Source of the DNA: Rubritepida flocculans DSM 14296
GTDB lineage: Bacteria; Pseudomonadota; Alphaproteobacteria; Acetobacterales; Acetobacteraceae
Direction: 5' to 3'
DNA: 64,000 nucleotides
Assembly: GCF_000425365.1 (NCBI RefSeq)
Contig: NZ_AUDH01000010.1
Span: 38,778-102,777, forward strand
Shown here: one piece after another, positions 41,785 through 44,009 of the stretch
Layout of the letters: every line of letters begins with the position of its first letter
Position numbering within the stretch: the first letter of the stretch is position 1
Notes under the pieces: model-generated
Seen by the model: the letters and a program-made list of their open reading frames with translations, nothing else
The model's database searches: none
What the model was told of the DNA's origin: nothing
Translations under genes and position numbers: made by a program

Positions 41785-42243
41785 ATGTCCGAGAATGACG
41801 GCGAGCGCCGCGACGGCGCCATGAACGACAGCGCCGCGAATCGGCCCAGGCTGGGCCGTCGCCTGCTGGTGGCCCGCGCGGCCTCGGGCGCGGGGATGGC
41901 GGCGCTGGCCGCCGCACCGGCCGCGGCGCAGTCCGGCCGCTCCGACAGCGACCCGAACGACCGGCCGGGCTATGGCCGCAGCGGCTTCACGGACAGCGAC
42001 CCCACGGACGGCCCCGGTCGTGGCCGCGGGGTCATCCAGGGCCGCCCCCGCACCGGGATCACGGACAATGACCCCTCCGACGGGCCCGGCTATGGCCGCG
42101 GCGGCGGGCGCCTCCGCACCGGGCTGACCGACAGCGACCCCTCGGACGGGCCGGGCTATGGCCGTGGCGGCGGGCGCCTCCGCACCGGGCTGACCGACAG
42201 CGACCCCTCGGACGGGCCGGGCTACGGCCGGCGCGGGCGCTGA
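41785..42243 (+). CDS. Secreted protein of TDxDPSDGPGxGR repeats (five units)
   Basis: A 152-residue protein with no family I recognise. An N-terminal charged stretch is followed by a signal-like segment with twin arginines (GRRLLVARAASGAGMAALAAAPAAAQS, about residues 24-50). The remainder consists of five copies of a roughly 22-residue unit: SDSDPNDRPGYGR, FTDSDPTDGPGRGR, ITDNDPSDGPGYGR, LTDSDPSDGPGYGR (twice). Glycine/arginine spacers (GGGRLRTG) separate them. The DxDPxD core resembles calcium-binding loops. The last two units are identical at the DNA level over about 66 bases. It is paralogous to the next gene, 94 bases downstream. Confidence 0.75.
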   Translation: MSENDGERRDGAMNDSAANRPRLGRRLLVARAASGAGMAALAAAPAAAQSGRSDSDPNDRPGYGRSGFTDSDPTDGPGRGRGVIQGRPRTGITDNDPSDGPGYGRGGGRLRTGLTDSDPSDGPGYGRGGGRLRTGLTDSDPSDGPGYGRRGR

Positions 42244-42337
42244 ACGGGCTTCCGCGACGCGGCGCTTGACGCCCACCCGCCCCGCGCGGGCATGATCGCG
42301 CGAACCGGCGCGGCAAGCCGGCAGGAAGGCACGGCCC

Positions 42338-42790
42338 ATGAGCGATTCCCACGAAGATCCGAAACTCTCGCGCCGCTTGCTGGTGCTGCGCGTGGGCACC
42401 CTCGCCGGGGCAGGCGCGGCCGTCTCGGCCTGCGTGGCCCCGGCGCCGGGCTATTACGCCCCGGCCGCGCCGGTGGTGGTGGCCCCGCCCCCGCGCGGCA
42501 CGGGCATCACCGACGCGGACCCCTCCGACGGCCCGGGTTTCGGCCGCGGCGGCTATCGCGGCAACCGCGTCCGCACCGGGCTGACCGACGCCGACCCCTC
42601 CGACGGGCCGGGCTACGGCCGCGGCGGCTACAGCGGCAACCGCGTCCGCACCGGGCTGACCGACGCCGACCCCTCCGACGGGCCCGGATTCGGGCGCGGC
42701 GGCTATCGCGGCAACCGCATCCGCACCGGCATCACCGACGCCGACCCCTCCGACGGCCCGGGCTACGGCCGCGGCGGCCGGCGCTGGTGA
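42338..42790 (+). CDS. Lipoprotein of TDADPSDGPGxGR repeats (four units)
   Basis: A 150-residue paralogue of the preceding gene. The signal region (LSRRLLVLRVGTLAGAGAAVSAC) ends in a lipobox VSAC at Cys32, so it is probably lipid-anchored. A Pro/Tyr/Val spacer precedes four near-identical 25-residue units with the core [IL]TDADPSDGPG[YF]GRGGY and a basic RGNRVRTG linker. The DNA shows a 75-base period. Regular spacing of acidic and RGG-like patches could bind cations or polymer. It ends 10 bases before the JmjC gene, with which it is almost certainly co-transcribed. Function unknown. Confidence 0.75.
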   Translation: MSDSHEDPKLSRRLLVLRVGTLAGAGAAVSACVAPAPGYYAPAAPVVVAPPPRGTGITDADPSDGPGFGRGGYRGNRVRTGLTDADPSDGPGYGRGGYSGNRVRTGLTDADPSDGPGFGRGGYRGNRIRTGITDADPSDGPGYGRGGRRW

Positions 42791-42800
42791 GCGGGGCGCG

Positions 42801-44009
42801 ATGAGCCCCGAGGGCGGCGCCGGGAACGCCCGCCTCGCGCCCGCAGGGCCGGACGCCGCCGGCCCCGGGGCGGAGAGCCTCGCCGAATGGGCCTTCGGCC
42901 TCGCCTTTCCGGGCCTCTCCGTCGAGGAGGCGCTGCGCCTGCGCGAAGGCACGGCCTGGCGCCACTTCCCCGCCGCGCGGCCCGACGCCTTCGCGGCGCT
43001 TCTCTCCACCGCCGATCTCGACGCCCATCTGCGCACGGACGGGGCGCGCAGCCCGCGCGTCTCGATGGCCGACGATTCGCGCGAGGGCAGCGCCGCCGTG
43101 CCCGAGCACGAGTTCTGCCTGCCCGATGGCCGGGTGGACCTGCCGCGCCTGCTGCTGCGCTTCGACGCGGGCGCCTCGCTCGTCGTCTCGCAGTTCCAGG
43201 AGACGCATCCGCCGCTCGCGCGCTTCTGCCGGGGCCTCGAGAAGCTGTTCCTGCACGGGGTGCAGGCCAACATCTACCTCACGCCCCCCGCCGCCCAGGG
43301 CTTCCGCACCCACTACGACACGCATGACGTGCTGGTGCTGCAGGTGGAGGGCCGCAAGCGCTGGCGCATCTGGGACGGCGAGCGCGTGCCCCGCCCCACC
43401 CGCCGCACCCCCTGGCCCGGCGGCATGGCGCCCGAGGGCGAGCCGCACACCCTCACCCTCTCCCCCGGCGAGGCGCTCTACATCCCGCGCGGGGTGATGC
43501 ACGACGCCGCGACCGAGCCGGGCGAGCCCTCGCTGCACATCACCGTGGGCTTCCTCGATCCCTGCTGGGCCCAGGCGCTGCGCGCCCTGCTGGACGATGC
43601 GGAGCTGACCGACCCCGCCCTGCGCGAATCCGTGCCCACCTGGCGCTTCGGCGAGGCGGCGCTGGCCGAGCGCCTGGGCGAGATGCTCGCGCGCCTCTCC
43701 GGCCCCGCCATGGCGGAACGGATGCAGAATCTTCTGCTCATGCAGCTTGCGAACGATCGCCAGCCCCTGCCCGCGCGCGGCCTCTTCGCCCCCATGCCCG
43801 AGGGGCGGCTGCGGCTGGCGGACGGGATGCATCACCACCTGATCCTGGGCGAGGACGGCACGGCCGCCCTGCACTGGGCCGGTGGCGCGGAGCCGCTGAC
43901 CCCGGCCCAGGCCGAGGAACTCGCCGCCCTTGCCGAGGGCGCCCTCCCCCGGGACCGGGATTTCGCCCGGGCCCTGTGGCGGCGCGGGCTGCTGGAACCC
44001 TGCGAGTGA
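42801..44009 (+). CDS. JmjC/cupin-type Fe(II)/2-oxoglutarate oxygenase (ROXA-like)
   Basis: A 402-residue protein of the ribosomal-oxygenase-like JmjC group. The iron facial triad is HYD (His171, Asp173) in GFRTHYDTHDVLVLQVEGRKRWRIW, and His234 in ALYIPRGVMHDAA. ANIYLTPPAAQGF precedes the first motif as in YcfD/ROXA. The C-terminal third is a helical, winged-helix-like region (LARLSGPAMAERMQNLLLMQL). It has no signal peptide, so it acts in the cytoplasm. Known relatives hydroxylate ribosomal proteins. Its position after the repeat-lipoprotein gene raises the possibility that the repeats are its substrate (inference). Confidence 0.86.
   Translation: MSPEGGAGNARLAPAGPDAAGPGAESLAEWAFGLAFPGLSVEEALRLREGTAWRHFPAARPDAFAALLSTADLDAHLRTDGARSPRVSMADDSREGSAAVPEHEFCLPDGRVDLPRLLLRFDAGASLVVSQFQETHPPLARFCRGLEKLFLHGVQANIYLTPPAAQGFRTHYDTHDVLVLQVEGRKRWRIWDGERVPRPTRRTPWPGGMAPEGEPHTLTLSPGEALYIPRGVMHDAATEPGEPSLHITVGFLDPCWAQALRALLDDAELTDPALRESVPTWRFGEAALAERLGEMLARLSGPAMAERMQNLLLMQLANDRQPLPARGLFAPMPEGRLRLADGMHHHLILGEDGTAALHWAGGAEPLTPAQAEELAALAEGALPRDRDFARALWRRGLLEPCE

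Follow-up and report, generated by a model that had tools for sequence, protein, structure and literature searches.

To our knowledge, hardly any substrates beyond the ribosome have been described for bacterial JmjC oxygenases that resemble NO66 and MINA53. NO66 (RIOX1) and MINA53 (RIOX2) share with the enzyme reported here a JmjC_2 domain, an HxD...H triad and an N-x-Y-L-T-P-P-x-x-Q-G-F stretch; unlike them, this enzyme is bacterial, patchily distributed and paired with exported repeat proteins. JmjC relatives are described as hydroxylating C-3 of histidine or arginine (PMC9994133; PMC5862935), and the substrate peptide given for NO66 is NPVE-H216-PFGGGNHQ, with His216 as the target (PMC9994133). 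The uL16 arginyl hydroxylase ROXA/YcfD is likewise a bacterial JmjC oxygenase with a glycine-rich target loop (PMC5862935).

Hydroxylation of a co-encoded ribosomal peptide by a JmjC enzyme is already known, since BipG carries out such a reaction, with a mass shift of +16 Da (PMC12707348); that system differs from ours in its short core, its other maturation enzymes, its cleaved antibiotic product and its ornithine target. Bufferins, which are MNIO-modified RiPPs and bind copper in the periplasm, also draw an exported precursor and an iron oxygenase from one gene cluster, but they rely on an MNIO instead of a JmjC enzyme, are Cys-based and carry a Sec-dependent signal peptide (PMC12452194). 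A 2025 RRE survey reports bacterial PF08007 homologues in RiPP-like contexts (PMC12710340); the relevant passage names neither a substrate nor a taxon, nor does it give a repeat motif or a Tat signal, and any overlap with the genes described below cannot be judged from it. The open-access literature yielded no account of this pairing of a JmjC gene with repeat genes, most subscription papers lying outside that scope.

The three genes reported here are best read, in our judgement and with some reserve, as a substrate-plus-modifier cassette in which an NO66-type oxygenase would hydroxylate aspartates of the repeats before Tat export. This reading starts from what the sequences themselves contain, namely the genes, the repeat motif, the twin-arginine motifs, the active-site residues and the co-occurrence of the two gene types.

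Organization of the locus

The cassette spans positions 41785-44009 on the plus strand of the window, by which we mean the whole stretch of 64,000 nucleotides of Rubritepida flocculans DNA that was analysed. It consists of three genes, given here with their coordinates and strand.

41785..42243, plus strand: gene A, a Tat-type repeat protein with five repeats (alternative start at 41821), identified from its ORF and translation
42338..42790, plus strand: gene B, a lipoprotein-like twin-arginine repeat protein of 150 aa with four repeats, a member of profile A2
42801..44009, plus strand: a JmjC_2 (PF08007) oxygenase of 402 aa with HxD...H at 171, 173 and 234, nearest to the NO66/MINA53 branch

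Gene A lies directly upstream of gene B, and its ATG at 41785 is preceded by a purine-rich stretch. It harbors the twin-arginine motif LGRRLLVAR and five repeats, from SDSDPNDRPGYGR through TDSDPSDGPGYGR; in gene B the motif LSRRLLVLR is followed by a lipobox-like SAC and then by four TDADPSDGPGxGRGG repeats. The form common to both genes is D-x-D-P-x-D-x-x-G-x-G-R-G, and the nine repeats counted by an earlier note on this DNA are those of genes A and B taken together. The ORF coordinates also confirmed that the JmjC gene starts 10 bases past the stop codon of gene B, a spacing from which we infer that both are carried on one transcript. Neither repeat protein exceeded the cut-off of any Pfam or NCBIfam family. 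When the repeat part of gene B was compared with that of L001, 54 codons were identical, 12 differed synonymously and 4 non-synonymously; because these changes are mostly silent, we argue that the frame of gene B is the truly coded one.

The JmjC oxygenase

Against PF08007 the window enzyme scored 86.5 bits (cut-off 22), and four diverged cassette JmjCs scored 85.5-102.8 bits. The triad His171, Asp173 and His234, which the earlier note had taken as the sign of an active enzyme, is indeed intact and was invariant across 19 aligned sequences; K186 was invariant along with it in alignments of 19 and of 15 sequences. We take K186 to be the 2-oxoglutarate-binding lysine, a role assigned from knowledge of the family, and with the triad and this lysine aligned the window enzyme has the make-up of an Fe(II)/2-oxoglutarate oxygenase.

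The view that the enzyme is a ROXA-like arginyl hydroxylase was not borne out. A profile of 15 cassette JmjCs, compared with PDB chains, found its best matches in NO66 (1e-52) and MINA53 (1e-45), followed by YxbC (4e-24), which is also deposited as a putative asparaginyl hydroxylase, and for the YcfD/ROXA chains the E-values were no better than 6e-12 to 1.5e-6. Because of these E-values we place the cassette enzyme nearest to the NO66/MINA53 branch, and membership of the ROXA group was dropped, the YcfD chains standing so far behind NO66. The substrate contacts reported for NO66 are R297, Y328 and S421 (PMC6006756); in the window enzyme the first and last are replaced by Val128 and Gly250 while Y328 is kept as Tyr159. 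With two of three contacts changed, the pocket differs from that of NO66, and therefore the substrate need not be histidine.

A structure model of the JmjC built from 3 sequences had a mean pLDDT of 44.5, a quality that does not permit analysis of the pocket; its sole long confident stretch, residues ~331-402, has an order of strands and helices that could be winged-helix-like, a winged helix being the C-terminal domain typical of ROX enzymes. When this model was used in Foldseek at E<=0.001, NO66 and two Rhodothermus YcfD-like entries were returned with TM-scores of 0.16-0.22, matches that add nothing beyond the sequence result.

A distant second NO66-like JmjC, with a ANVYISWQSHKAF stretch, recurs in the family of the source genome (G000:C1:322438-323661, also L163, and L030-L039). 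Its retrieved flanks were devoid of the repeats, and we know of no substrate for it.

Co-occurrence within the family

The family sample comprised 397 genomes. Profile A1 was used to find the JmjC (E<=1e-50) and profile A2 to find the repeats (E<=1e-8), and the two sets of genomes were compared by eye from complete listings of the matching genomes. The JmjC was found in 64 genomes, the repeats in 67 and both in 62; Fisher tests of this co-occurrence, uncorrected for relatedness, gave 7e-64 when genomes were counted and 4e-16 when genera were. Three genera (g4, g63 and g37) each include genomes with both genes and genomes with neither. In the large samples 4-5 candidates were scored per genome for A1 and the broader JmjC profile A3, and nine for A2 and the repeat profile A4, the A1 search of this family scoring 4; since so few candidates were scored, a profile miss is weaker evidence than a match and no proof of absence.

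The repeats adjoin the JmjC gene in 60 of the 64 genomes (36 known from retrieved loci, 22 from coordinates that put 5 to 1037 bases between the genes, and two minimal cases), so that a putative precursor and modifying enzyme are co-encoded as in RiPP systems. In G005, G331, G373 and G393 the repeats lie elsewhere in the genome and none were seen near the JmjC. The two JmjC genomes without an A2 match, G229 and G235 (JmjC E-values of ~1e-58 to 1e-60), have a tiny Tat ORF with TDHD/TDND motifs adjoining the JmjC, ending in QTDHDTGRGSDEVNQTDND and QTDNDTGRGSDYVGQTDND, respectively.

Five genomes have repeats and no A1 match. In G106 (97% complete) profile A3 found only the distant NO66-like paralogue, at 1e-49, and the best A3 match of G238 (85% complete), at 1e-47, was counted as distant NO66-like only. 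The other three, G177, G287 and G308, gave no JmjC at E<=1e-15 with A3, and their assemblies are fragmented or incomplete: G177 is 78% complete, with repeats that reach the contig end, and G287 and G308 are in 1040 and 740 contigs. The repeat gene of G238 that stands without a detected cassette JmjC (L177, on G238:C469) has neighbours that resemble, by eye, an acyl carrier protein and a ketosynthase. The G088 JmjC match (G088:C1:1560472-1561639, L027) is divided between two reading frames, which may reflect a frameshift, and hence a broken copy, or an assembly error.

The repeats could in principle be unmodified, acidic, Gly-rich polymers of the envelope, with the JmjC as a partner that responds to oxygen or iron and leaves them untouched, and the D-x-D...D spacing might by itself bind Ca2+. 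We consider this highly improbable, as it leaves the presence of the JmjC in 62 of the 67 repeat-bearing family genomes unexplained. Because the two gene types co-occur so regularly, the repeats are very probably the enzyme's own substrate.

Distribution outside the family

Among the 385 genomes of a class sample, counted starting from repeat matches, ten besides the source genome had the repeats, in five further family codes (f4, f13, f16, f63 and f128), and a cassette-type JmjC lay beside them in all ten. In a phylum sample of 319 genomes, where repeats were detected with A4 at E<=1e-4 and strong JmjCs with A3 at E<1e-120, the repeats were present in seven genomes and the strong JmjC in exactly those seven, three of them new (family code f23) and four also part of the class sample. 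The next-best JmjC, at 5e-55, was the source genome's own paralogue, and nine further genomes had JmjCs at 8e-48 or weaker only, and no repeats by profile. All cassette genomes beyond the family belong to the same class as the source genome. Gene order varies among families and can be divergent, the JmjC being transcribed away from three, two and one adjoining short Tat repeat genes in G935, G960 and G1060, respectively.

The earlier note had made its proposal depend on the two genes occurring together in other genomes. Co-occurrence proved near-perfect in the family and phylum samples, which share some genomes, and it persists where the genes are unlinked (4 of the 64 family genomes) or divergent; the pairing of JmjC and repeats is thus strongly supported by co-occurrence in sequence data. 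A chance neighbourhood was rejected on the same family and phylum counts. The plasmid collection held no match for the JmjC or for the repeat protein, a result weakened for the latter by the BLAST low-complexity filter, and a scan of viral contigs gave no confirmed relative.

In a quick tree of 51 JmjCs, 2 changes separate 34 cassette rows from 17 others, and none of 500 shuffles was as low; here L020, L165 and L167, with repeats only elsewhere in the genome, were labelled as cassette rows, L163 and L164, paralogues from cassette genomes, were labelled repeat-less, and four rows from which our pattern extracted no sequence were left out. L029 and L108 branch from a fork that this tree does not resolve. 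An NO66-type sequence, together with the NPVDHPHGGG loop in the source genome's own uL2, would also suit a ribosomal hydroxylase (of uL2, for example) whose repeat neighbourhood reflects inherited linkage or co-regulation. That reading is very unlikely, given that the enzyme has a patchy distribution which follows that of the repeats even when the genes are unlinked or divergent, and that so few changes part the cassette JmjCs from the others.

Repeat residues and the nature of the modification

We picked 98 repeat ORFs with a pattern in which each of the three acidic positions could be Asp or Asn and the Arg position was left free. Two repeat spacings exist, DxDPxD and DxD[ST]GxxxD. Counted leave-one-out, with the other positions held and with related sequences entering many times, Asp occupied the first position at 460 of 460 sites, the second at 450 of 450 and the third at 474 of 475, and Arg occupied its own position at 460 of 482. 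Asp and Arg had both been called invariant in the earlier note; this stands for Asp, which is invariant in the window and nearly so elsewhere, but not for Arg, since the repeats that accompany G720's second JmjC, DPIGEGSDYDPNDPIGGGSDTDPVDPIGEGTDYD, contain none at all. Arg is accordingly not supported as an obligatory target, and Asp is favoured as the essential residue because it is near-invariant while Arg is absent from that cassette.

Modification of the repeats at Arg instead of Asp, by a ROXA-like C-3 hydroxylation, would agree with the frequent conservation of Arg and with its position in a Gly-rich stretch like that of uL16, EVR82MGKGKG (PMC5862935). We nevertheless hold it to be unlikely in view of the G720 repeats, of the minimal repeats of G229 and G235, which lack GxGR and have an Arg only elsewhere (TGRGSD), and of an enzyme far closer to NO66/MINA53 than to ROXA.

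Other oxidative chemistry, such as cross-linking, desaturation or macrocyclisation, could turn the repeats into a RiPP-like product. The title of a 2025 paper reports alpha-ketoglutarate-dependent macrocyclisation in RiPPs, and a JmjC enzyme, BipG, works in biphenomycin biosynthesis, though as an ornithine hydroxylase (PMC12707348). However, the repeat has no conserved Cys, Lys or aromatic residue, and we judge such chemistry rather improbable. Hydroxylation is the likely reaction of the JmjC on the repeats, and aspartate, on balance, the residue modified.

Export signals

RRx(hydrophobic) was found in 97 of the 98 repeat ORFs and a hydrophobic stretch after it in 94, although the twin-arginine count is partly circular because an RR upstream of the repeats was required when the ORFs were selected. 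R12 and R13 do not vary across the 19 rows of A4. The repeat ORFs thus have the twin-arginine motif and following hydrophobic stretch of Tat substrates. A permissive lipobox pattern occurs in 29 of 94 repeat ORFs, and one repeat protein of G543 (L106:1309-1992) has a C-terminal PG_binding_1 domain (1.1e-18), which is a hint that repeats may be held at the cell wall; the lipobox patterns and this fusion therefore point to the envelope.

A TL[TS]DxDI-like motif precedes the twin arginine in 13 of 94 ORFs (for example in L028, L100, L106, L108, L126 and L132), mostly in carriers outside the window's close relatives; it is possibly a recognition sequence, resembling the TDxD of the repeat itself. 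Several two-repeat proteins at L132, L133 and L134 (G935, G1060 and G960) end in a C-terminal Cys (APYC, APFC, APRC, GGC), a feature that we did not notice in the window's family.

The source genome has a third repeat gene (G000:C5:35146-35649; L005, L178), which is unlinked to any JmjC and lies upstream of what appear by eye to be a response regulator and a sensor kinase. At six loci with unlinked repeat genes, examined with a codon-composition script, the neighbours differ between genera, two g95 genomes sharing theirs, and the gene lists gave no functional hint.

Proposed mechanism

In the mechanism that we propose, the dedicated JmjC of the NO66/MINA53 branch would bind the repeats of newly made proteins in the cytoplasm, at the motif [ST]-D-x-D-(P-x or [ST]-G-x-x-x)-D-x-x-G-x-G-R-G, and hydroxylate one Asp per repeat, most likely at C-3. 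The modified polypeptides would then be exported by the Tat system, to be held in the envelope (some by a lipobox, one by its peptidoglycan-binding domain) or to remain free in the periplasm. We place the modification in the cytoplasm because Fe(II) and 2-oxoglutarate are there, and modification before export fits the predicted Tat signals. C-3 of Asp is proposed because relatives of the enzyme hydroxylate C-3 of His or Arg; within the NO66/MINA53 branch, no enzyme that hydroxylates Asp is known to us.

The target His in the NO66 substrate and in the source genome's own uL2 loop, NPVDHPHGGGEGR, is followed by P-x-G-G-G, and the third Asp of ADPVGYGRG is followed by P-x-G-x-G. We treat this resemblance as a lead found post hoc; the minimal repeat of G229, which has no Gly after the third Asp, weakens it.

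Hydroxy-aspartate arrays could bind metal ions in the periplasm. The comparison with bufferins suggests such a role by analogy (PMC12452194), and metal binding by the modified repeats is a tentative proposal that we advance with some doubt. Taken jointly, the observations might describe a class of modified envelope proteins new to the literature, in which a ribosomal-type oxygenase was recruited to make beta-hydroxy-aspartate arrays on a mimic of the uL2 loop, converged or captured, which would serve the alphaproteobacterial envelope as a metal-binding material; this full picture is speculative, and we think it possible rather than probable.

In this cassette the genes for substrate and enzyme are neighbours, and one chain offers many near-identical sites. 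If the reading is true, it would reveal a new modification of proteins, probably hydroxy-aspartate, and, in a large environmental group, a new type of Tat cargo; studies of JmjC specificity would also gain an enzyme whose repeat substrate is simple.
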